From the NCBI GenBank assembly GCA_900100475.1, contig FMTU01000001.1, positions 124,001-188,000 on the forward strand: a DNA stretch of 64,000 nucleotides, given 5' to 3'. Shown piece by piece: positions 8,275-20,646 of the stretch. The position numbers and the translations under genes were made by a program. The first letter of the stretch is position 1; each line of letters starts with the position of its first letter. The stretch is from Sphingobium faniae (GTDB lineage: Bacteria > Pseudomonadota > Alphaproteobacteria > Sphingomonadales > Sphingomonadaceae). The notes beneath the pieces were generated by a model, which saw nothing but the letters and a program-made list of their open reading frames with translations, made no database searches and was not told the origin of the DNA.

Positions 8275-8405
8275 CCCGTGGTGGCAATGGAACCGGGAAA
8301 AGGTCTGACTCTCGACAGCAGGGCATGCTTGCCGATAACAGTGGCGCGACCGTGCCGGAATCACACCGGCTTCTTTCCCCTGGTTAGTTCGCCCTGATTA
8401 GGAGC
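8275..8405 (-). promoter_or_regulatory. Cobalamin riboswitch upstream of cbtBA
   Basis: On the minus strand the leader reads, in order, GGGGAAAGAAGCCGGTGTG, GATTCCGGCACGGTCGC, the B12-box core GCCACTGT (complement of 8338-8345) and GAGTCAGACC (complement of 8302-8311). These are the standard conserved parts of the AdoCbl aptamer. The leader ends about 30-50 bases before the cbtB start, so B12 would repress cobalt uptake. Confidence 0.9.
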
Positions 8406-8426
8406 GAACAGGCCGCGGCGTCAACC

Positions 8427-9005
8427 TTGTGGAGAACGCGCCTGACCACCCGGCTGATCCTTCTCAACGCGGGCGGCACCGCATCGGCCCGCATCGGGGC
8501 ATTTGCCGCGGCCGACGAAGGCCTTGACGAAGGCGGGTGGCGGAAGGCCAAAAGCAGGGCCGTCCCTGCCCCGCTGCCCGACCGGACGGTTTGCAGTCCC
8601 CTCCGCTGCGCCCGCGAAACCGCGGCGGCGCTGGGTCTCGATCCGGACGAGGAACCGGCGCTTGCCGACAGCGATCATGGACGGTGGGCCGGCCGGCCGC
8701 TGACCGACATCGAGCGCGAGGAGCCGCAACTCCTGGCCCGCTGGCTTGCCGATCCGGGTGGCGGCGCGCCAGACGGCGAGACGCTTGGGCAGGTCATGCA
8801 GCGGACAGGTCCATGGCTCGACCGCGAAATGAGCGCCGGTGGAACCGTGCTGGCGATCACTCATGCCGCCGTCATGCGGGCGGTACTGGCCTGCACGCTG
8901 CACATCCCCGCGCGATCGACGTTCAGCATCGATATCGCACCGCTTTCATTCATGCTCCTGTCGTTCAACCGGACGTGGCGCCTTCAGGAACTCAGGCCGC
9001 TTTAG
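8427..9005 (+). CDS. Histidine-phosphatase-fold protein lacking the RHG motif
   Basis: The 192-residue product follows the phosphoglycerate-mutase-like layout: an N-terminal strand (TRLILLNAGGTAS), CSPLRCARETA, DHGRWAGRPLTDIE, and the C-terminal LAITHAAVMRA. In active members the first motif is RHG; here it is NAG (residues 14-16 from the TTG start), so the phospho-accepting histidine is missing. The position next to cbtBA and btuB fits a CobC/alpha-ribazole-phosphatase-related origin. The start is uncertain: TTG at 8427 is the first in-frame option and no ATG exists. It is divergent from cbtB. Confidence 0.72.
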   Translation: MWRTRLTTRLILLNAGGTASARIGAFAAADEGLDEGGWRKAKSRAVPAPLPDRTVCSPLRCARETAAALGLDPDEEPALADSDHGRWAGRPLTDIEREEPQLLARWLADPGGGAPDGETLGQVMQRTGPWLDREMSAGGTVLAITHAAVMRAVLACTLHIPARSTFSIDIAPLSFMLLSFNRTWRLQELRPL

Positions 9006-9099
9006 GGTCCTGCCCCTTGGCGCTTCCCCCCTTGCCAAGCCCCGCATCACCGTCTATCGGCCCGCACGTTCGGTCGGTGCCATTGGTTCCGATCGGGCA

Positions 9100-9345
9100 T
9101 GATCGCGCCGGTGCCTCGAAAGAGGCTTAAAATGGGAACGCGGTGCGGACGATCTCCGGCTGGTCCGGTGTCGTCCTAATCCGCGGCTGTCCCTGCAACT
9201 GTAAGCGGCGAGCGCGATGCACATGCGCGGCGAGGGCAAAGCGTCCCGCGCCGCCAGTCACTGGGCCGGACGCTAAATCATGCGAGGCCTGGGAAGGCCG
9301 TGCATCAAGCTATGACCCGCGAGCCAGGAGACCTGCCTGCGTCTG
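9100..9345 (+). promoter_or_regulatory. Cobalamin riboswitch upstream of btuB
   Basis: A textbook AdoCbl riboswitch: GGTGCC near 9110, TTAAAATGGGAACGCGGTGC (9127-9146), GCGGCTGTCCCTGCAACTGT (9182-9201), a peripheral stem, then the B12 box CGCCAGTCACTGGGCC (about 9253), GGGAAGGCC (9292), and GAGCCAGGAGACCTGCC (9320-9336). The distance to the btuB ATG is about 190 bases, with room for an expression platform. Confidence 0.96.
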
Positions 9346-9534
9346 GTCGCTCTTGCTTTGGTCCAGGGGATGGCCGGGGCACGGTGTTTTCCGTCTGAGC
9401 GACGAACGAGCGGTGGGAGCCGCACGGAGACGCATGGCGGTCGCCCTCGGGGCGCCCGGCTGCCGCGCGTTCCGGCCGTTCGCGTAAGCGGTACGCTCCT
9501 GCCTGACGTCGCGCGGCGCCGACAGGGGAACACA

Positions 9535-11541
9535 ATGCAACAGAAATTCGTATCGCAAGCTGCGCTGGCCGTGGCTCTTTCATTCACGTGGACATCGCAC
9601 GCATGGGCCGATGAAGCTGGCAAAACCATCATCGTCACGGGCAACAGCCTCGAAGAGACGCTCCCGCAGGAACTGGCAACCTACGGCCATGACATCGCCA
9701 TCCTCGATGAAAAGCGGATCAAGGACATCGCCCCGCTGGACATGGCGCGCGCGCTCGAACTCGTGCCGGGGCTTTACATCCGCTCGCAGAACGGCCCGTT
9801 CAGCTATGTGGACATCGCGCTGCAAGGCTCGCGCACCCAGGACGTGCTGTGGACCATGGACGGCATCCGCCTCAACAACCGGCTATACGGCACAACGTCG
9901 CCCAACGACACCCTGCCCGCCAGCATGATCGAGCGGATCGAGGTACTCAAGGGCGGCGAGAGCCTGTTCTACGGCACGCAGGCCGCAGCCGGCATGATCA
10001 ACGTCGTGACGCGCGGCTTCACCGACGATCTCAACGGGCAGATCAACGGCAGCGTCGACAATCGTGCGAGCACAAGCGTCGACGGCTATGTTCGCGGCTC
10101 GCTGGGCGGCGGGCATCGCTTCGTGGCCTATGCCTCGCACAACCAGGCGGAGGGCTATAACCCTTTCAGCGTCTCGCAGCCGAGCCTGACCCACAAGAAA
10201 TACGGCTATGACATGTGGTCGGCGGGCCTCAAATATCAGTATGAACTGGCGCCCGACCTCACGCTCAACGCGCAGTGGCAGCACACCGAGGCGAAGATCG
10301 ACAATCTCGCCCCGTCGCGCGTCAACAAAAGCCGCAACGACCGCAACGAGGAGATCGGCAGCGTCCGCCTGGACTATACGGCCGACGACGGCGTCCAGTT
10401 CTTCCTCAAGGGATATTTCCATGACTGGAAGACGGCCTACGTCCAGATCCTGAATCCGATTCCGGCCGGGCCGCCGATCACCGTGTTCCCGCCCGGCACT
10501 TTCTGGGGCTATCGCGACTGGGGCGGCAGCGCCGTGGTCAAGCTGCACCTGCACCGCGGTCTCGAATATCTGGTGGGCTATGATTACCAGAACTTCAACG
10601 GCCGCGACGACGTGCTGCTGATCGCACCGACCAGCGAGCAGGTGCATGCCGGCATCTTTCAGGTCCGCACCACGGATGAGATCTCGGAAAAAGGGCGTAT
10701 CGCCGCCGGTCTGCGATACAACAAGGGCGACGGCACGAAGAAGACGATCTGGAACGTCAGCGGGCGCTATACCTTCAGCGACGCGCTGTTCGTCGAGGCG
10801 AACGGCGGCACGGCCTTCGTCTTTCCCGACGCCTCTGCGCTCTACGGCAACGATCCGTGCTGCGAGACCGGCAATCCCAATCTCAAGCCCGAGGAAAGCC
10901 TCAACCTCAATGCCGCGGTCGGCGGCAAGATCGGCCTTGGCGCGGGAAGCCTGCGCTGGAAGGCAACCTACTTCAACCGCCGGATCACCGACCTGATCGA
11001 CTATGATTATGACAACCCGGCCTTTCCGGGCGGCACCTACAAAAATGTGGAAGACAAGGTGAAGTCCGAAGGCGCCGAGCTTGAGGTCGGGGCATCGTGG
11101 GACAACGGCTGGAGCGCGCTGGCCAGCTATACTTACGCGCGCGTGCGCAACTCAGGCAGTTCGACGCAGCGCGACCGCAATCCCAAGCAGTTCGCAAAGG
11201 GGGGGCTTGCCTACGCCCCGGACGATCAGCGGTTCGGCGGCAACATCACGGTGAGCTGGGTGGGCGATGTGTTCGCGCGGGCGCCGGGCGGCTTCCCACG
11301 GCGGAACTACGGGAACTATGCGCTCGTCGACGCAGGCGTGTTTCTCTACGTCGATGGCGAGGCCCGACGGAACAGGTTCGCGATCAACGTCGAAAATATC
11401 TTCGACAAGGATTATGCGACGCGCGGCTACCGATCCGGCGTCACCGACGCCGGGGTTCTCGACGGCACCAGCAGCCGGTTCGAGTTCTACAATCGCGGCG
11501 TACCGCGCACGCTGCGCGTAAGCTATGGCCTGACGTTCTAG
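9535..11541 (+). CDS. btuB: TonB-dependent vitamin B12 receptor BtuB-like
   Basis: A 668-residue outer-membrane receptor: signal peptide ending near SHAWA, a TonB box-like IIVTGNS, a plug domain (ARALELVPGLYIRSQ, LWTMDGIRLNN, ERIEVLKGGESLFYGTQAA), and a beta-barrel ending with the aromatic SYGLTF. The ATG at 9535 follows AGGGGAA and begins the signal peptide; upstream extension in the same frame runs into the riboswitch. Regulation by the preceding riboswitch supports B12 or another corrinoid as ligand. A PepSY protein gene starts 11 bases downstream. Confidence 0.9.
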   Translation: MQQKFVSQAALAVALSFTWTSHAWADEAGKTIIVTGNSLEETLPQELATYGHDIAILDEKRIKDIAPLDMARALELVPGLYIRSQNGPFSYVDIALQGSRTQDVLWTMDGIRLNNRLYGTTSPNDTLPASMIERIEVLKGGESLFYGTQAAAGMINVVTRGFTDDLNGQINGSVDNRASTSVDGYVRGSLGGGHRFVAYASHNQAEGYNPFSVSQPSLTHKKYGYDMWSAGLKYQYELAPDLTLNAQWQHTEAKIDNLAPSRVNKSRNDRNEEIGSVRLDYTADDGVQFFLKGYFHDWKTAYVQILNPIPAGPPITVFPPGTFWGYRDWGGSAVVKLHLHRGLEYLVGYDYQNFNGRDDVLLIAPTSEQVHAGIFQVRTTDEISEKGRIAAGLRYNKGDGTKKTIWNVSGRYTFSDALFVEANGGTAFVFPDASALYGNDPCCETGNPNLKPEESLNLNAAVGGKIGLGAGSLRWKATYFNRRITDLIDYDYDNPAFPGGTYKNVEDKVKSEGAELEVGASWDNGWSALASYTYARVRNSGSSTQRDRNPKQFAKGGLAYAPDDQRFGGNITVSWVGDVFARAPGGFPRRNYGNYALVDAGVFLYVDGEARRNRFAINVENIFDKDYATRGYRSGVTDAGVLDGTSSRFEFYNRGVPRTLRVSYGLTF

Positions 11542-11552
11542 CGAGGGACAGC

Positions 11553-14105
11553 ATGTCAGGCCCGATCCTCTTCATCCACCGGTGGCTGGGAGTTCTGGTC
11601 GGCCTCATCATGACGATCTGGTGCCTGTCCGGCTTCGTCATGATGTATGTCGATTACCCCCGGCTCCTGCCGGCCGAACAGCTCAGCGGCCTTGAGCCGC
11701 TGGTGCTGCCCGCGCCCGGCGTGCTGGAGAGGATCGACATTCCGGCGGACACCGCCCTGTCGGCCGCGAGGATCGAGATGCTGGACGGACGCCCGGTCCT
11801 GCGGCTGCGCCCCGCGCTCGACCCGTCGCGTCCGATCGAGCAGACGCGGGCGTTGCCCCAGGCATATGATCTCCAGACCGGCAAGCCGCTCACGCCGGTC
11901 TCCGCGAGCCAGGCGTTGTCGATCGGCGAGCGCTTCGCGCGCGGGTTCGGGATCGCTGGAAAGGCGACCTCCGCCGTCCCGACCGGGATGGATCAATGGA
12001 CCGTGCAGACCTTCCGCGGCCATCAGCCGCTCTACCGCGTCGAATTTGACGATCCCGCAGGATCGACCGTCTATGTCGCGGGCAACAGCGGCAAGATCGT
12101 CCAGCAGACGACCCGGTTCGAACGCTTCTGGGGATGGCTCGGCGCGGTGCCGCACTGGCTCTATCCCACGATGCTCCGGCAGGACGGCGCGCTGTGGAGC
12201 CAGGTCATCGTGTGGAGTTCGCTTCTCGGCTGCTTCCTGACCGCCACCGGGCTGTGGGTGGGCATCGGCCGGCTGCGCCGCCGGCGAGACGGTTCACTGG
12301 GCTCTCCCTATCGTGGCCTGTGGTGGTGGCACCATATCTTTGGTCTGTTCTTCGGCATCCTGACCCTCACCTGGGTTGCGAGCGGCCTCTTTTCGATGAA
12401 TCCCTGGGGGTTCCTCGGCAGCATGGCGGGCTTCGCCGAGGCCCAAAGGCTCGAAGGGAAGTCCACCTGGGGCCACGTCCGCAACGCGATGAGCGCGGTT
12501 GGCGATCTGCCCGAAGGGACGGCGCGCCTGCAATCGGCTCCGCTTGGCGGGCAGTCCTTCGTCGTCGCCGTCAACCGGGACGGCGATGCGGCCCGCTTCG
12601 GCGCCGATGGGCGTCGCGCGCCGCTCGACCGGGCGGCGCTCGCAGCGGCGTTGCGCGACGGACCGCCGATCGCCTCGCTGGCCCTGCTGAGGTCCGAGGA
12701 CAGCTATTACTACACGCACAAGTTCCCCATGAGCCTGCCGGTATGGCGCGCCATTCTTGCGGACGAAGAGCAGACGCGACTTTATATGGATCCGCAGACC
12801 GGAAGCCTGATCCGTGCGTTCGATCGCGACGGTCGCAATTTCCGCTGGTTGCAGAACGGGCTTCACAGCCTTGACCTGCCCTTCATGCGGCGCCGGCCCG
12901 TCTGGGACCTGATCGTCCTGCCGCTGCTGGCGGCGGTGACGCTCGTCTGCGCGACCGGCACATGGATGGGGTTCAGGAAGGCATCGCGGGATGTCGGTTC
13001 CGCGCGGCGGCGCTGGCGGCGCAAAATCCGGCCCGACGGCATCGAGGCGGCCGATCCCTATGTCGGCGAATATGATTTCGGCACACTTATCGCCAATCCG
13101 GAAGCCAGGATCGAAGTGCTGCGCGGGCTGCAGTCCTCGCTCTATGGTTCGGATGCGATCGGCGGCGTCATTCATTATATCACCCTTATCGGCGCCGAAG
13201 CGCCCGGCCTGTCGGTTCGCGCGGAAGGCGGTTCTCTGGGCACCTATAGCGGAAGCGCACGCGCCGCTGGCGTTGCAGGCGCGCTCGATTACGCGGTGTC
13301 GGCTTCCTATTATCATACCGATGGCCGGCCGATTTCGGAGTTCGGCACGCGCGACGTCGGGTCGGACAGCCTGGGCCTCAACGCGAAGTTGATCTGGTCA
13401 CCAACGGAAAGCTTCAAGCTGACCGGAGTGGCACGGTACAGCCACACTGACGCCGACCTTGGCGACTTCGGGTTGGACCCGGTCGATTCTCCGCCCGCAC
13501 CCGACCCGACGCCGGGTGACGACGTCCTGTTGCTGGCACTCGACGCTCCGGGAACCTATTACAAGAACAAGGCTTTTTATGGCTTCGTTCGCGCTGAGTT
13601 CGCGGCGCTCGATGGCCGCTGGACCAACGCGCTTTCGGGCCAGATCGCCGACACCAGACGTCGAGGCTTCACCCCGGCAGGCCTCGATTATGGTAACAAT
13701 GGCCGCCGTCTCAAAGGGTCGTTCGAATCGAGCCTGCGTTTCGGCAGCGAGACGGTCATCCACCGCCTCACAGCCGCGGTCGACATGGAGCGTGAGGAGT
13801 TTCAGAACAAGACGCCGGGGACCGGCTCGCCTTACGATGCATTCGACCGCAAGCGCCATACCGACAACATCGGCATCGTCGGACTGATGGCGCCCCATGT
13901 CGTCCGTCCGCTGGTGGCGCATCGGCCGGGCCGGGTTCTGGGGCCCGCCATGCTCGCGGGCGCGATCCTGGTCACGCTCGCCGACATCGCCACGCGCGCG
14001 CTGGTGTTCGGCGGCGCGCCGCTCAATGTCGGCGTGTTCACCAGCCTGATCGGCACGCCCTTCTTCCTCTGGCTGGTCCTGCATATCCGGAGGCGATCGC
14101 CATGA
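11553..14105 (+). CDS. Chimeric frame: PepSY-TM protein + TonB-receptor piece + BtuC tail
   Basis: A single uninterrupted frame of about 850 codons holds three unrelated parts. Residues 1-490 are a PepSY-associated membrane protein (FIHRWLGVLVGLIMTIWCLS at the start; WWHHIFGLFFGILTLTWVASG in the middle; a last membrane segment then RRRWRRKI), probably complete. Residues about 492-773 are TonB-receptor plug and barrel (RIEVLRGLQSSLYGSDAIGG). Residues 774-850 are the C-terminal end of a FecCD/BtuC permease (GLMAPHVVRPL to FFLWLVLHIRRRS). The original order was presumably PepSY gene, then btuC, then the ATPase. A stable product with this topology is implausible; only the PepSY part may function. 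Confidence 0.75.
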   Translation: MSGPILFIHRWLGVLVGLIMTIWCLSGFVMMYVDYPRLLPAEQLSGLEPLVLPAPGVLERIDIPADTALSAARIEMLDGRPVLRLRPALDPSRPIEQTRALPQAYDLQTGKPLTPVSASQALSIGERFARGFGIAGKATSAVPTGMDQWTVQTFRGHQPLYRVEFDDPAGSTVYVAGNSGKIVQQTTRFERFWGWLGAVPHWLYPTMLRQDGALWSQVIVWSSLLGCFLTATGLWVGIGRLRRRRDGSLGSPYRGLWWWHHIFGLFFGILTLTWVASGLFSMNPWGFLGSMAGFAEAQRLEGKSTWGHVRNAMSAVGDLPEGTARLQSAPLGGQSFVVAVNRDGDAARFGADGRRAPLDRAALAAALRDGPPIASLALLRSEDSYYYTHKFPMSLPVWRAILADEEQTRLYMDPQTGSLIRAFDRDGRNFRWLQNGLHSLDLPFMRRRPVWDLIVLPLLAAVTLVCATGTWMGFRKASRDVGSARRRWRRKIRPDGIEAADPYVGEYDFGTLIANPEARIEVLRGLQSSLYGSDAIGGVIHYITLIGAEAPGLSVRAEGGSLGTYSGSARAAGVAGALDYAVSASYYHTDGRPISEFGTRDVGSDSLGLNAKLIWSPTESFKLTGVARYSHTDADLGDFGLDPVDSPPAPDPTPGDDVLLLALDAPGTYYKNKAFYGFVRAEFAALDGRWTNALSGQIADTRRRGFTPAGLDYGNNGRRLKGSFESSLRFGSETVIHRLTAAVDMEREEFQNKTPGTGSPYDAFDRKRHTDNIGIVGLMAPHVVRPLVAHRPGRVLGPAMLAGAILVTLADIATRALVFGGAPLNVGVFTSLIGTPFFLWLVLHIRRRSP
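13025..13873 (+). pseudogene. Internal fragment of a TonB-dependent receptor
   Basis: The fragment starts mid-plug (DGIEAADPYVGEYDFGTL, then the highly conserved ARIEVLRG and SSLYGSDAIGG) and ends in the barrel at AFDRKRHTDNIGI. Signal peptide, TonB box, first half of the plug and most of the barrel are missing. It is in frame with the PepSY gene upstream and the btuC remnant downstream. It differs clearly from the intact btuB at 9535, so it is not a simple internal duplication of that gene. Confidence 0.8.
13872..14105 (+). pseudogene. btuC-like permease, C-terminal fragment only
   Basis: About 78 residues with the conserved FecCD motif GIVGLMAPHVVRPLV, a membrane segment (GPAMLAGAILVTLADIATRA), the motif LNVGVFTSLIGTPFFLWL, and a basic end. 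Intact BtuC has about 320-340 residues and ten membrane segments, of which only the last two remain. The stop overlaps the ATPase start (ATGA), the normal arrangement for btuC-btuD. The junction GIVG (13872-13883) is plausible in both the receptor and the permease. Confidence 0.82.
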
Positions 14106-14878
14106 GCGCGCTCACGCTGGACGGGATCACCATGGATCGCGGCGGACGCCGCGTCCTCGACGATATCGGCCTTTCCTTCGCGGCGGGGCGGATGACGGCG
14201 GTGATCGGCGCCAACGGCGCGGGCAAGAGCACCCTGCTCGCGATCGCGGCGGGGCTGCTGACGCCGGGCGCGGGATCGGTGCGGTTGGGCGAACGGCGCC
14301 TGACGGCGATCGGCCGGCGCGAACGCGCCCGCCGCCGGGCTTATCTGCCGCAACGGGCCGGCGTTGAATGGCCGATCAGTGTCGAACGGGTCGTCGCGCT
14401 CGACCTGACGCCAACCCTGCCGGCCTTCGGCGACCTGCCATCGACGATGCGTCCGGCGATCGACGACGCGCTCGCGGCCTGTGACCTGCTCGGCCTGCGC
14501 CACCGTCCCGCCACCAGCCTTTCAGGCGGCGAACTCGCCCGGACGATGCTGGCGCGCGCGATCGTCGCCGATCCGGAACTGCTGATCGTGGACGAGCCCA
14601 CCGCCGGACTGGACCCGCGCCATGCCCTCGACGCCATGCGCCGCCTGCGCGCGCGGGCCGATGCCGGCTGCACGGTCATCATGGCGATCCACGATCTCGA
14701 CCTTGCGCTGGGCCATGCCGACGATCTGATCGCGCTCAAGGCCGGCAGGCTCCTTGCCGCCGGCCTCGTCAGCCAGACCGCGACCGAGGCGTTGCTGGCC
14801 GCGCTTTACGACTTGCCCGTTCGCCTGACCCGCGATGCTGACGGCATCGCCGTGCGCTTTCTTGCCCCAGAGGAATGA
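14102..14878 (+). CDS. btuD: ABC transporter ATP-binding protein (BtuD/FecE type)
   Basis: A 258-residue ATPase with Walker A GANGAGKS (residues 36-43), a Q-loop PQRAG, the signature LSGGE (140-144), Walker B LLIVDEP and a switch histidine in IMAIHDLDLA. The family energises import of corrinoids, haem or siderophores. It overlaps the permease fragment by four bases. With the permease broken, it has no partner in this window. Assignment to B12 rests on the locus. Confidence 0.82.
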   Translation: MSALTLDGITMDRGGRRVLDDIGLSFAAGRMTAVIGANGAGKSTLLAIAAGLLTPGAGSVRLGERRLTAIGRRERARRRAYLPQRAGVEWPISVERVVALDLTPTLPAFGDLPSTMRPAIDDALAACDLLGLRHRPATSLSGGELARTMLARAIVADPELLIVDEPTAGLDPRHALDAMRRLRARADAGCTVIMAIHDLDLALGHADDLIALKAGRLLAAGLVSQTATEALLAALYDLPVRLTRDADGIAVRFLAPEE

Positions 14879-15876
14879 CCATGCAATCCCTCCCTTTCTC
14901 CCTGCTCGCCGATCTTGCCGCCGATCCCGCCAATGGCTGGAGCATCGGCACGTTCGGCGTGGCCGGTGAATTCATGCGCGATACCGACGAGCCCGCCACG
15001 ATTCACCGCGATGACGAACGGATCGAGATCGTCACTCCGCGCGGCGCCATGCGGTTCGCGCCAGTTGACGACATGCACACCGTCGCCTGGGACAGCCTGT
15101 CCGCCGATGGCGAAAGCTGGGGTCACGGCATGGCGATCTGCATGGCCGTGCCCGCAACCCCGCATCGCGCCATCCACGCGCTGGGCGTTGACGCGCAAGC
15201 CCTGCGCCCGGACGATCGCACGCATCGCCTGTTTGGGCTCGGCGGCGGCCATGGCGCGGTCGACATGGCGCTGCGGACCGACGATGCCGATCTGATCGCG
15301 GCGATGGACCGCTCCGTTGGAACAGCCTTCCTCGGCCATGACGAGATCATGCGTCATGTGCTGCGCGCGCAGCCGCACCGCGTCCTGCTGTCCCCGATCG
15401 GCCGGATCGAAATCTTCCAGCCCGTTCCGCCGCCCGACGGCAAGTCGCCGGAAGGACCGCATACGCACTTGCTGGCAAAGCTGGTGAAAAAGGATCGCCC
15501 CCACTCCTCGAACGTCTCTATCCCGGAGGGCTGTCAATCTATCCTCAACATCCACCCGCGCTCACCCTGGCGGACGCTGCTGGGCGAACGGCATCCCCAT
15601 CGCCCCGACATCGACACGGCCTTCATGCCGCTGCTGGAAAAATACGGCCTCGCCGAAAACCGCGCGGTCGATGCGCAGTTGCGCGCCGCGATATCGCGCG
15701 GCGCCAGCCCGGAATTTGTCGCGTGGCCCGATGCGCGGTGCGGACGGACCAAGGCCCGGATCGTGCTGCGCCGTATGGCCGCTGCGGGCGACGAACGGGT
15801 CGCGCCCTGGCGCGCCCTGTTCAATCGCACAACCCCCGAAAACATCGGCGAGACCGAAGAAGGAGAAGAAGCGTGA
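14875..15876 (+). CDS. Uncharacterised protein in the cobalamin operon
   Basis: A soluble 333-residue protein with no signal peptide or membrane segment and no motif I can name with confidence. It contains a run of conserved-looking acid and glycine residues (HRLFGLGGGHGAVDMALR), a histidine/proline-rich part (PEGPHTHLLAKLVKKDRPH) and NIHPRSPW. The start overlaps the ATPase stop (ATGA) and its stop overlaps the cobW start (GTGA), so it is tightly translated with them. The location between an uptake ATPase and cobW suggests a job in corrinoid or cobalt handling, for instance as a metal-binding accessory protein; this is inference. Confidence 0.6.
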   Translation: MTMQSLPFSLLADLAADPANGWSIGTFGVAGEFMRDTDEPATIHRDDERIEIVTPRGAMRFAPVDDMHTVAWDSLSADGESWGHGMAICMAVPATPHRAIHALGVDAQALRPDDRTHRLFGLGGGHGAVDMALRTDDADLIAAMDRSVGTAFLGHDEIMRHVLRAQPHRVLLSPIGRIEIFQPVPPPDGKSPEGPHTHLLAKLVKKDRPHSSNVSIPEGCQSILNIHPRSPWRTLLGERHPHRPDIDTAFMPLLEKYGLAENRAVDAQLRAAISRGASPEFVAWPDARCGRTKARIVLRRMAAAGDERVAPWRALFNRTTPENIGETEEGEEA

Positions 15877-16919
15877 GCCCAGTCGTCACCAAAGTCCCCA
15901 CCACTGTCATCACCGGCTTTCTGGGCGCGGGCAAGACCACGCTCATCCGCCATCTGCTCCAGAATGCGAAGGGCAAGCGCCTCGCCCTCGTCATCAACGA
16001 ATTCGGCGATGTCGGCGTCGATGGCGAACTCGTGCGCGGCTGCAATGACGAGGCCTGCCCCGAGGACGACATCGTCGAACTGGCCAATGGCTGCATCTGC
16101 TGCACCGTCGCCGACGATTTCCTGCCGACGATGCAGAAGCTGCTAGACCGGCCCAATCCGCCCGATCACATCATCATCGAGACTTCGGGGCTGGCGCTTC
16201 CCAAGCCGCTGGTGAAAGCCTTCCAGTGGCCCGACATCCGCACCCGCGCGACCGTCGATGGTGTCGTCGCACTGATCGATGCCGACGCGGTTGCGGCCGG
16301 ACGCTTCGCCACCGACCTCGACGCATTGGCGGCAGCGCGCGCGGCGGACCCTACGCTCGATCATGACAGCCCGCTGGAGGAACTGTTTGAGGAACAGTTG
16401 GCCTGTTCCGACATGGTGGTGCTCAACAAGACCGATCTGGTCGATGCCGCCACGCTCGCGAAAGTCGAAGCTCTGGTCGAGGCCAAGACGCGGCCCGGCG
16501 TCAAGATCGTGCGGGCCGATCATGGTGCCGTCGATATTGCGGCGTTTCTAGGCATCACCGCAGCGGCCGAGGACGATCTCGATAGCCGCAAGTCGCACAT
16601 CGACGATGGCGAAGAGCATGATCACGACGACTTCGACAGCTTCGTCGCCCAGGGCGGCGAGGTCGCCGATCTCGATGCCCTGCTCGCGGCGATGTCGGCG
16701 CTGATCGCCGAGCACGACGTGCTGCGGATCAAGGGTATGGTCGCGCTCGCCGGCAAGCCGGCGCGGCTCGTCGTACAGGCGGTCGGGCCGCGTATCCAGC
16801 ACCATTTCGACCGGGGATGGCTACCGGCCGAGATCCGCCGCACCCAGCTCGTCGTGATCGGCCAGAGCGGTCTCGACCGTCCGGCGATCGAAGGCGGGTT
16901 AAAGGCCGTGATCGGCTGA
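15873..16919 (+). CDS. cobW: CobW-type GTPase metallochaperone
   Basis: A 348-residue G3E GTPase with a P-loop in TGFLGAGKTT, the metal-binding CxCC motif in NGCICCTV (Cys74, 76, 77), the switch/Walker B IETSGLALP, and the guanine motif NKTD. An acidic, histidine-containing linker (EEHDHDDFDSF) leads to the CobW_C domain. CobW is thought to deliver Co2+ to the aerobic cobaltochelatase. The GTG at 15873 follows AGGAGAAGAA and overlaps the preceding stop. cobN begins two bases after it ends. Confidence 0.93.
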   Translation: MSPVVTKVPTTVITGFLGAGKTTLIRHLLQNAKGKRLALVINEFGDVGVDGELVRGCNDEACPEDDIVELANGCICCTVADDFLPTMQKLLDRPNPPDHIIIETSGLALPKPLVKAFQWPDIRTRATVDGVVALIDADAVAAGRFATDLDALAAARAADPTLDHDSPLEELFEEQLACSDMVVLNKTDLVDAATLAKVEALVEAKTRPGVKIVRADHGAVDIAAFLGITAAAEDDLDSRKSHIDDGEEHDHDDFDSFVAQGGEVADLDALLAAMSALIAEHDVLRIKGMVALAGKPARLVVQAVGPRIQHHFDRGWLPAEIRRTQLVVIGQSGLDRPAIEGGLKAVIG

Positions 16920-16920
16920 C

Positions 16921-19900
16921 ATGCATCTGCTTTCGGCAACACCGGGGACGGTTTCCAACGGCGACGAGGCAATCGACCTCGATCAGTCGCCGGGGGATAT
17001 CGTCGTCCTGACTGTGGCCGACAGCGAACTCGCGTGTTTCTCGCGGGCGGCTGGCGAACTGGGTCTTGACGGGCCGAGCGTCCGCCTCGCCAATCTATTG
17101 CAGCTCAGGCACCCCTATTCGGTCGATCTCTATGTCGAGAAGGTCATAGCGAAAGCCAAATTCGTCTGCGTCATCCTGCTCGGCGGCAAAAGCTACTGGC
17201 CCTATGGGGTCGAGGAGATCGCGCAAATCGCGCGCGAGAAAGGCATAGCATTCGCCGCCATAGCCGATGGACGGGAGGACGATCCTTCGCTCGCTGCGGC
17301 ATCGACCCTGCCGCCCGAAACCTGTGAGCGCCTGCGCAGCTACTTGCGGCAGGGCGGGGTCGCCAACGCGCTGGGCTTCCTGCGCACCGCCGCACGGCTG
17401 ATCGGCAAGGACGCCGGCACGCCCGACGATCCGGTGCCGGTGGCGGACGCCGGGCTCTATCTGCCCGGCGCCGCGCGACCGACGCTCACCGATCTGCGCG
17501 CGACCTGGGCCGAGGGACAACCCACCGCGCTCTTCGTCTTCTACCGCGCGCTGATGGTCGCCGGGACGCTCGATGCCGTCGACGCGATGGTGGCGGGGCT
17601 TGCGGCGCAGGGCCTCAATGTCGCCGCGGTGCACGTTCGCGCGCTGCGCGAGCCTTTCGCCCGCGACTGGCTGCGGGGAACGCTGGGCGAGATCATGCCG
17701 GACGTGATCGTCAATGCGACCTCGTTCGCGGCGTCCTCGACGGGGGACGACCGCCTCCCCTCGGTACTGGAAGCCGCCGATTGCCCGATCCTTCAGGCCA
17801 TTTTCGCCGGCGTCGATGAAGCCGGTTGGCGCGAAAGCCCGCGCGGCCTTGGCCCTCGCGATCTCGCGATGAATGTCGCGCTCCCCGAGGTCGACGGCCG
17901 TCTGTTCAGTCGAGCCATCGCCTTCAAGACGACAGAGTACTTCGACCCGGTGACCGAATGCGGCATCATCGTTCCCAAAGTGGTGCCCGACCGGATTGCC
18001 TTCGTCGCAAGGCTTGCCGCCAATTGGGCACGGTTGCGGCGGACCTGTCCCGCCGACCGCCGCATCGCCCTTGTGCTCGCCAACTATCCGAACCGTGATG
18101 GACGGATCGGCAACGGCGTCGGCCTCGACACGCCCGAAAGCGCGACAGCGATCGTCGGCGCTTTACGCCAGGCTGGCTATGCGACGGGTGACGCCCCCGA
18201 AGACGGCGCGGCCCTGATGCGGCTGATGACGGGCGGCGTAACCAACGACCTGTCATCGTTGGACCGTCCCGGCGAAATCGCGCTGCCGCTGACGATCTAT
18301 CGTCAGGCGTTCGCGTCGGTGCCCGAAGCCGCGCGGCACGCCATGATCGCACGGTGGGGAGAGCCTGAAGCCGACCCCTTCGTGCAAGGCGAAGCGTTCC
18401 GCCTTCCCGTTCACCGCTTCGGCAATCTCATCATCGCGGTGCAGCCCGCGCGCGGCTACAATATCGACCCCAAGGAAACCTACCACGATCCGGCCCTGCC
18501 GCCGCCGCACGCCTATCTCGCCTTCCATGTCTGGCTGGAACGCGAATTCGGCGTGCAGGCCGTGGTCCATGTCGGTAAGCACGGCAATCTCGAATGGTTG
18601 CCCGGCAAGGCGGTCTCGCTGTCGGCGGATTGCTTCCCGGAAATCTGCGCCGGGCCGGTGCCGCAACTCTACCCCTTCATCGTCAACGATCCGGGCGAAG
18701 GCACGCAGGCGAAGCGGCGGATCGGCGCGGCGATCATCGACCATCTCACCCCGCCTCTCACCCGCGCGGAAAGCTATGGCCCGCTGAAGGCGCTCGAAGC
18801 GCTGGTCGACGAATACTATCTTGCTGCCGGCATGGACCCGCGCCGGCTGGAGAAGCTGCGCCGCGACATCCTCGATCTCGCGCGCGGTCAGGGACTGGAT
18901 CAGGATGCCGGCGCGATAGGCGACGGTGACGACGCGCTGGCAGCGATCGACAATTATTTGTGCGAACTGAAGGAAATGCAGATCCGCGACGGACTGCATA
19001 TTTTTACCCGCTCGCCCAAGGGCCGGGTCCGGCGCGATCTGCTGGTGGCGCTCTCCCGGACGCCACGAGGTTACGATCATTCGGGCCAGGCATCGCTGCT
19101 GCGCGCGCTGGCGGACGACCTGGACCTGAAATTCGATCCCCTCGATTGCAAGATGGGCGATCCCTGGACCGGCCCGCGACCCGCCATTCTCACGGCGGTG
19201 ACGAAAGACCTTTGGCGCAACCACGGCGACACCATCGAACGCCTTGAGATTCTGGCCGCCGATCTGGTCGAAGCCCGAATCCTTGAAGGGGTGGGAGCAA
19301 GAAGCGCCGCCGTCCTGCGGGCGGTGAACTCCGATCTCGCCGCGCGCGTCGATGCCTGCGGCCCGGCCGAGACAGACGCCCTTCTCGCCGGTCTCGATGG
19401 CCGGTTCATCATGCCGGGGCCATCGGGCGCGCCGACGCGGGGACGGCCCGACGTGCTGCCGACGGGGCGCAACTTCTATTCGGTCGACACGCGATCGGTG
19501 CCGACCGCCGTCGCCTGGGATCTGGGCTACCGCTCCGCGCAATTGCTCGTGCAGGACTATCTCCAGCGCGAGGGCGAATATCCCAAGGCGATGGCGCTGT
19601 CGGCGTGGGGCACGGCCAACATGCGGACAGGCGGCGACGATATCGCGCAGGCGCTCGCCTTGATGGGCGTGAAGCCAAGATGGGAATGGACATCGGGCCG
19701 GGTGATCGGCTTCGAGATGATGACGCTGGCAGAACTTGGCCGGCCACGCGTCGACGTGACCTTTCGCGTCTCGGGTTTCTTCCGGGACGCCTTTCCAGAG
19801 CAGATCGACCTTATCGATTCCGCGGCGCGCGCGGTGATGGCGCTTGAGGAAGACGACGAGGACAATCCGGCAGCCGCGCGTCACCGCACCGAGACGGCCG

Positions 19901-20646
19901 CCCTCATCGCGGATGGAGCAGATACCGGAGCCGCTGCCCGGCGCGCCGGTGCACGCGTGTTCGGCTCCAAACCGGGGGCTTATGGCGCAGGATTGCAGGC
20001 GATGATCGATGAACGCCTGTGGCACAGACGAGCCGATCTTGCCGATGTCTATCTCGACTGGGGCAGCTACGCCTATGGCGCGGGCGTCGAAGGCGAGGCC
20101 GAGCGCGCGCTTTTCGCCGCCCGGCTGACCACGATCGATGCCGTCGTGCAGAACCAGGACAACCGCGAGCACGACCTGCTCGACAGCGACGACTATTACC
20201 AGTTCGAAGGCGGGATCGCCGCGGCCGTGGAGCACCTCAAGGGCCGCAAGCCGCACAGCTATCATAACGATCACAGCCGTCCCGAACGCCCCATGGTCCG
20301 CACGCTCGAAGACGAGATCGGCCGGGTCGTCCGCGCGCGGGTGACGAACCCCAAATGGATCGCAGGGGTCATGCGCCACGGCTACAAGGGCGCGTTCGAA
20401 ATCGCCGCCAGCGTCGACTATCTGTTCGCCTTTGCCGCGACGACTCACGCCGTCCGCGACCACCATTTCGACGCCGTTTACGCCGCCTTCATGGAAGATG
20501 AAGCGGTCCGCGCCTTCATGGCCGAGGCCAATCCCGCCGCCTTGCGCGAAACCGCTGCGCGGCTCGCCGAAGCGCTGGAGCGCGACCTCTGGAAACCCCG
20601 ATCCAACAGCGCGGGCACCCTGCTCGCCGAACTTGCCGGAGCATGA
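16921..20646 (+). CDS. cobN: Cobaltochelatase subunit CobN
   Basis: A 1241-residue protein, normal size for CobN, the large substrate-binding subunit of the aerobic ATP-dependent cobaltochelatase that inserts Co2+ into hydrogenobyrinate a,c-diamide. Typical landmarks are visible: GRIGNGVGLDTPESA near residue 395, VVHVGKHGNLEWLPGKA near 550, GEGTQAKRR near 595, and the C-terminal FGSKPGAYGAGLQAMID and NREHDLLDSDDYYQFEGG. The partner subunits CobS and CobT are not in this window and would have to lie elsewhere. Confidence 0.96.
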   Translation: MHLLSATPGTVSNGDEAIDLDQSPGDIVVLTVADSELACFSRAAGELGLDGPSVRLANLLQLRHPYSVDLYVEKVIAKAKFVCVILLGGKSYWPYGVEEIAQIAREKGIAFAAIADGREDDPSLAAASTLPPETCERLRSYLRQGGVANALGFLRTAARLIGKDAGTPDDPVPVADAGLYLPGAARPTLTDLRATWAEGQPTALFVFYRALMVAGTLDAVDAMVAGLAAQGLNVAAVHVRALREPFARDWLRGTLGEIMPDVIVNATSFAASSTGDDRLPSVLEAADCPILQAIFAGVDEAGWRESPRGLGPRDLAMNVALPEVDGRLFSRAIAFKTTEYFDPVTECGIIVPKVVPDRIAFVARLAANWARLRRTCPADRRIALVLANYPNRDGRIGNGVGLDTPESATAIVGALRQAGYATGDAPEDGAALMRLMTGGVTNDLSSLDRPGEIALPLTIYRQAFASVPEAARHAMIARWGEPEADPFVQGEAFRLPVHRFGNLIIAVQPARGYNIDPKETYHDPALPPPHAYLAFHVWLEREFGVQAVVHVGKHGNLEWLPGKAVSLSADCFPEICAGPVPQLYPFIVNDPGEGTQAKRRIGAAIIDHLTPPLTRAESYGPLKALEALVDEYYLAAGMDPRRLEKLRRDILDLARGQGLDQDAGAIGDGDDALAAIDNYLCELKEMQIRDGLHIFTRSPKGRVRRDLLVALSRTPRGYDHSGQASLLRALADDLDLKFDPLDCKMGDPWTGPRPAILTAVTKDLWRNHGDTIERLEILAADLVEARILEGVGARSAAVLRAVNSDLAARVDACGPAETDALLAGLDGRFIMPGPSGAPTRGRPDVLPTGRNFYSVDTRSVPTAVAWDLGYRSAQLLVQDYLQREGEYPKAMALSAWGTANMRTGGDDIAQALALMGVKPRWEWTSGRVIGFEMMTLAELGRPRVDVTFRVSGFFRDAFPEQIDLIDSAARAVMALEEDDEDNPAAARHRTETAALIADGADTGAAARRAGARVFGSKPGAYGAGLQAMIDERLWHRRADLADVYLDWGSYAYGAGVEGEAERALFAARLTTIDAVVQNQDNREHDLLDSDDYYQFEGGIAAAVEHLKGRKPHSYHNDHSRPERPMVRTLEDEIGRVVRARVTNPKWIAGVMRHGYKGAFEIAASVDYLFAFAATTHAVRDHHFDAVYAAFMEDEAVRAFMAEANPAALRETAARLAEALERDLWKPRSNSAGTLLAELAGA

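Follow-up and report, generated by a model that had tools for sequence, protein, structure and literature searches.

Riboswitch-controlled operons of the order receptor-btuF-btuC-btuD, in some cases continued by cobW-cobN, serve vitamin B12 uptake in sphingomonads, and a region of the order riboswitch-btuB-hoxN-cobW-cobN-cobO-btuF has been described for Sphingomonas haloaromaticamans (PMC6970198). The window, by which we mean the whole 64,000-nucleotide stretch of Sphingobium faniae DNA that was analyzed, has the gene order, the riboswitch class, and the ATGA/GTGA border between btuC and btuD in common with the sphingomonad operons, but it lacks the start of the TonB-dependent receptor of that operon (TBDR2), the riboswitch of this receptor, the receptor end, btuF, and most of btuC, while what is left is fused to the gene of a PepSY membrane protein. 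This PepSY gene belongs to a second arrangement, a pair with another receptor (TBDR1) under a cobalamin riboswitch. The same pair and riboswitch are found in the window and in relatives, but in the six relatives for which the PepSY end was read the gene terminates in a stop codon of its own, whereas the PepSY of the window is fused. Fusion pseudogenes that arise from in-frame deletion between neighboring genes are a general class, which the window resembles in that its remnants follow the native order, one junction probably has short homology, no fused relatives were found, and the lost parts are absent; it differs in that it has two junctions that each keep the frame, involves three families, and has not yet acquired a stop codon. 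We read the fused frame as the relic of a B12 uptake operon decayed by deletions and not as a new kind of protein, with a probability of about 0.8. Both the parts and the process are of known kinds. The features are collected in Table 1.

Table 1. Features of the fused frame and its surroundings, in positions of the window
Feature	Position	Strand	Evidence
Cobalamin riboswitch before operon	9092..9354	+	Rfam RF00174, 89 bits vs cut-off 31.5
TBDR1, intact TonB-dependent receptor	9535..11541	+	Pfam plug and barrel; 53-71% to receptors before the PepSY gene in relatives
PepSY part of fused frame	11553..13034	+	PF03929 above cut-off; 58-68% to nine other genus places
TBDR2 remnant, second half of plug and start of barrel	13035..13883	+	66% to L064 receptor; 53-73% to 15 other genus places
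Second junction, fits both parents ((V/I)G.VG)	13869..13883	+	Overlap of receptor and BtuC homologies
btuC, last quarter	13869..14105	+	FecCD profile 240-310/311; 71-82% to BtuC of L062-L064
btuD, ATPase gene, intact	14102..14878	+	PF00005; 69-73% to three genus orthologues; ATGA overlap with fused frame
DUF6925 gene	14875..15876	+	PF21973, E 1.4e-95; ATGA overlap with btuD
cobW	15873..16919	+	PF02492 and PF07683; GTGA overlap with DUF6925 gene
cobN	16921..20646	+	PF02514; one base after cobW

The fused frame is a single open frame on the forward strand, from the ATG at 11553 to the TGA at 14105, with 850 codons and zero internal stops, and it holds a PepSY protein, a TonB-receptor piece, and a BtuC tail in this order. 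Pfam places PepSY_TM at residues 8-303 (E 6.7e-9), the TonB Plug at residues 493-539 (profile positions 61-107 of 107, E 1.4e-5), and FecCD at residues 772-843 (E 4.8e-15), the latter covering only positions 240-310 of the 311 of the profile, so that a complete permease domain is absent. Among the matches listed, the top relatives match the three parts with E values of 1.9e-205 (PepSY), 3.5e-120 (receptor), and 5.6e-20 (BtuC), which excludes chance; the matching relatives are titled Sphingomonas, Sphingobium, Niveispirillum, and Azospirillum. Two hydrophobic helices remain in the BtuC tail, which corresponds to residues 253-323 in an alignment with the 326-residue BtuC chain 1l7v_A. The initial annotation, which described a frame of about 850 codons through three families, with a receptor piece beginning in mid-plug, the last two helices of a FecCD/BtuC permease, both junctions in frame, and no nonsense codon, is thus borne out on its anatomy. 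It had also taken the PepSY protein to be complete. The PepSY homology spans residues 1 to 472-480 of the fused frame, being conserved to about 12993 with a variable tail beyond, and the PepSY_TM match and the full length against relatives are both present. In six relatives the protein ends 16-36 residues past a conserved WMG, compared to 21 residues before the junction in the window, which suggests a protein that is complete or nearly so, from which a few tail residues may have been lost.

The fused architecture occurs at none of the 15 other receptor places and none of the 9 other PepSY places in the 94 genus genomes, none of which has a frame longer than 774 aa, nor at any of 35 relative TBDR2 loci. 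The open frames measure 661-774 aa at these receptor places and 518-674 aa at these PepSY places, against 1006 in the window. A conserved gene fusion is accordingly ruled out for the genus places and TBDR2 loci examined, and the earlier view of the frame as an accidental rearrangement is upheld.

The native surroundings of the receptor piece can be read from the 35 TBDR2 loci, which come from 15 other genus genomes (6 + 9) and from 20 of the 31 other matching genomes of a family draw; the other 11 genomes of that draw include G064, which was already among the first six. In all 35 the receptor can be aligned as far as residue 633 or beyond, out of 640. It is followed by btuF, btuC, and btuD on the same strand in 11 (L062, L063, L064, L086, L087, L089, L092, L093, L096, L100, and L104), BtuF lies on the opposite strand in 12 (BtuC 48-54%, BtuD 39-45%), and btuF, btuC, and btuD were not found in the examined stretch of the remaining 12. 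In all 11 btuFCD loci a riboswitch precedes TBDR2 and the btuC-btuD border is ATGA or GTGA, although in L089 the aligned start differs, with an ATGA present. The DUF6925 gene comes next in 6 of these 11 (in part in L062), and cobW-cobN is found in 4 (L086, L089, L092, and L096). The order runs on through DUF6925-cobW-cobN as in the window in L089, L092, and L096, where cobW is 76-82% identical; L086 has a more distant cobW (57%) and cobN (39%) with a riboswitch of their own before them. As a separate observation, the DUF6925 match at L062 9000-9617 ends at residue 207 of 330 and is perhaps another decaying gene in the operon.

The pieces in the window are closest to those of such operons at their downstream end, the BtuC tail at 71-82% and BtuD at 69-73%. 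A BtuD orthologue at this level of identity (69-73%) is present in 3 of the 93 other genus genomes (G064, G078, and G098, corresponding to loci L062, L063, and L064), the next best being 44% or less, and in these three TBDR2, btuF, and btuC lie upstream of the ATPase gene. The TBDR2 piece itself is 73% identical to the receptor of L040, which has no btuFCD in its stretch, and 68-71% to those of L062-L064, where btuFCD is next (71% for L062). Its homology corresponds to residues 106-373 of the 640 of the L064 receptor, and a signal peptide, a full plug, and a full barrel are absent. The complete order receptor-btuF-btuC-btuD is not found in the window: the remaining pieces stand in native order, btuF is absent, and the receptor and btuC are fragmentary, hence the locus is a remnant and not a working member of the operon class.

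At the second junction the BtuC homology starts before the receptor homology ends, and 15 bases fit both parents, in agreement with the previous placing of the junction in a GIVG common to the two. Because the receptor is the upstream neighbor of btuF-btuC-btuD in 11 of the 35 loci, this junction would most simply be an internal deletion of one operon, with btuF as the intervening gene. The earlier proposal that receptor DNA had replaced btuC is for the same reason not retained, as the receptor would be native at this place, with its own end, btuF, and three quarters of btuC deleted; the loss of the first three quarters of btuC and of a gene between, proposed together with it, is retained, only the btuC tail being left. 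The reading thus shifts from an imported receptor segment to the in-place decay of a B12 uptake operon. A search for the junction motif worked in 5 of the 11 btuFCD loci (the other 6, where the motif was not found, were dropped) and gives a deletion span of 2368-2485 bases. In those five relatives the two 15-base stretches share 9-12 bases, with a longest identical run of at most 7, and of 300 same-phase stretches around btuC, 18, 4, 3, 4, and 1 equal or beat the junction, the site itself included. Since this sharing was counted in relatives, the exact homology of the true parents may differ. Recombination at short homology, as suggested before, is plausible at this second junction.

The origin of the first junction is less certain. 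The TBDR2 riboswitch and about 105 codons are missing there, and a riboswitch-receptor-PepSY module lies in front. PepSY was found beside TBDR2 in none of 36 other TBDR2 genomes and none of the 93 other genus genomes (the two sets overlap). It is present at E <1e-50 in 4 of the 36, each time on another contig, and the genus genome G049 has both PepSY and TBDR2, 1.7 Mb apart. Three loci, L035-L037, had been considered as PepSY-then-TBDR2 candidates and were rejected, because their receptor match proved to be TBDR1, which lies on the upstream side of PepSY. A parent state with PepSY next to an intact TBDR2 we infer from the window.

In the decay reading, an operon TBDR2-btuF-btuC-btuD-DUF6925-cobW-cobN with its own riboswitch would have been placed downstream of another module under a riboswitch, TBDR1-PepSY. 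A rearrangement would then have fused the last PepSY codons to TBDR2 in mid-plug, at the cost of the TBDR2 riboswitch, the signal peptide, and the first ~105 codons. In a second event, a deletion of ~2.4-2.5 kb probably at short homology, the remainder of TBDR2, the whole of btuF, and three quarters of btuC would have been lost, and neither join would have broken the frame. The product would be a PepSY protein with ~355 useless C-terminal residues, in which the four hydrophobic PepSY helices would place the receptor piece on what is presumably the cytoplasmic side, and the BtuFC transporter of the window locus would be lost. The fused frame ends in the ATGA of btuD, and an in-frame join would keep ribosomes reaching cobW-cobN, whereas out-of-frame joins would probably be polar. 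The order of the two events, the expression of the frame, and such a selective filter we infer from this arrangement. The ATGA overlap of btuD with the permease stop, noted previously, is real, while the accompanying idea that translation continues into btuD has to be abandoned: btuD is in a different frame from the fused frame, therefore translation would re-start there rather than read through.

The constraint on the pieces was assessed by a three-way comparison of the window, a sister (L062, L063, or L064), and outgroups, counting window-only changes by codon position. With L062 as the sister, the TBDR2 piece has an excess of changes at codon positions 1 + 2 with all seven outgroups, at p <0.02 in six of them (with outgroup L064, 60 vs 27 changes, p 0.0005), and no significant excess at position 3 (lowest p 0.13). 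Under the same sister, p <0.05 at positions 1 + 2 is reached in 0 of 7 comparisons for btuD, 0 of 5 for DUF6925, and 0 of 7 for the 78 codons of the BtuC tail. L063 and L064 were set aside as outgroups of each other, being close relatives; btuD too has an excess in that pairing. So treated, L064 as the sister gives p <0.005 with 4 of 6 outgroups for the TBDR2 piece, and L063 gives a weak result, p <0.05 with 1 of 6. For DUF6925, one comparison gives an excess (L064 as the sister and L096 as the outgroup, positions 1 + 2, p 0.021). The outgroups are not independent of each other. Terminal branches of the window and L062 are 0.33 and 0.06 for the receptor, 0.15 and 0.06 for the BtuC tail, and 0.22 and 0.26 for BtuD. 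When changes are counted only where the other sequences do not vary, the receptor piece of the window is the highest of 7 (11.3%, next 9.4%) and of 12 (7.5%, next 5.1%) and the second of 22 (5.5% vs 6.8%), a count that is weak when taken alone. Together these comparisons suggest relaxed constraint on the TBDR2 piece. Receptor exchange could contribute to the rate excess, because the receptor tree does not group the window with L062.

That the frame is nevertheless open can be weighed against chance. By chance, one pair of joins in nine would keep the frame at both, so the outcome is not rare in itself. Neutral evolution was simulated under assumed rates of mutation and of indels; the odds that neither a stop nor a frameshift arises are 0.22-0.38 at 0.02 changes per site and 0.01-0.06 at 0.06. 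By this model an open frame would be nothing unusual in a young fusion and more notable in an old one. These odds bear on a possible addition to the decay reading that does not exclude it, namely that the openness of the frame, and not its sequence, is under selection, the dead gene being kept as a translated spacer through which ribosomes reach btuD-DUF6925-cobW-cobN. The three consecutive gene overlaps would fit such a role, since btuD, DUF6925, and cobW begin inside the preceding stops and the open frame may have been retained for this, as would the excess at positions 1 + 2 without any stop and the low odds for an old fusion. Against it, the extra changes may be older than the fusion, in which case the open frame needs no selection, and a young deletion explains the open frame equally. 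We consider this addition rather unlikely. The locus nonetheless offers a testable case of whether translational coupling decides which operon deletions survive, and it illustrates how such decay can stay hidden, as the frame looks like a single long PepSY protein.

A less probable alternative is that the operon is intact in the strain and that sequence was dropped at two places during assembly. The assembly is a draft of 93 contigs, and the species is represented by one genome in the sample, which leaves some room for an error of this kind. The shared stretch, on the other hand, is 15 bases long with at most 7 in a row identical in five relatives, while the word lengths used in assembly are usually far above 7-15 bases; the locus lies inside a 574 kb contig; and the lost parts are on no contig of a genome listed as 100% complete. 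For the lost receptor, BtuF, and BtuC parts, the genome has no other copy at orthologue-like identity. The L064 receptor as the query recovers the window remnant at 70% over query residues 144-414 and other receptors at 35% or less, so that the parent receptor, for which a genome search had been proposed, is not found elsewhere. The BtuF query has one genome match, at 30%. FecCD occurs twice in the genome (E <0.001), complete at C57:285098-286030 and as the tail of the fused frame. A transfer of the receptor piece from another locus of the genome was also considered and rejected; there is no second copy, and in relatives the receptor is often the neighbor of btuFCD.

The proposed search for another BtuC and BtuF finds both, intact, in a paralogous locus at C57:284-289 kb, ~150 kb away, where receptor, BtuF, BtuC, and BtuD are all open and accompanied by a riboswitch. 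Because of this locus, which could do the work, loss of the BtuFC transporter of the window would be tolerable. Separately, the receptor at C67:721-2724 of G000 lies just after the strongest cobalamin riboswitch match of the genome and has one in-frame TGA in the aligned stretch.

The last alternative, a working three-part fusion in which PepSY carries a BtuC tail that still docks BtuD, may draw on the open btuD without excess of change against L062, but it is absent from every relative examined, keeps two of the ten helices of whole BtuC, and contains a receptor piece with half the plug and a portion of the barrel, whose constraint looks relaxed, which makes it very improbable; most likely the frame does not work as a fused protein.

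The module in front of the decayed operon recurs in relatives. The riboswitch of the window is the only one there at cut-off and precedes TBDR1, whose start codon was set from a signal-peptide-like start; CbtA and histidine phosphatase genes lie farther upstream. A weak match of 24 bits, below the cut-off, was also observed at 8279-8433 (-), on the strand of the CbtA gene. PepSY is present at E <1e-90 in 9 of the 93 other genus genomes, with TBDR1 before it in 7 of these and another receptor in L046 and L110. The TBDR1-PepSY pair is found in all seven named loci L033-L039. A riboswitch scan of the PepSY loci, excluding L048, L049, L107, and L108, places a riboswitch directly before TBDR1 in L033-L039 and L047 and before the other receptor in L046 and L110, with none at cut-off in L109. 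A PDB search with PepSY found none, and of the 147 records from a plasmid search none reaches 80% coverage of the query.

A TonB receptor paired with a PepSY membrane protein under a cobalamin riboswitch is thus a recurrent arrangement, present in sphingomonads and at two loci with the titles Niveispirillum and Azospirillum, and PepSY may be an unrecognized component of B12 uptake. A search of the open-license literature combining PepSY, cobalamin, TonB-dependent, and riboswitch found nothing, and one on PepSY and cobalamin gave no such receptor-PepSY pair by title; the window brings this recurrent pair to attention. The modules are also combined in other ways. At L109 1922-6440 a DUF6925 gene stands before TBDR1-PepSY, a different mixture of the same modules. 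At L106 5486-13828, probably on the same contig as L034, cobW and cobN directly follow TBDR1-PepSY, as if the TBDR2-btuFCD-DUF6925 block were absent, which is perhaps the end state of the decay that is half done in the window.
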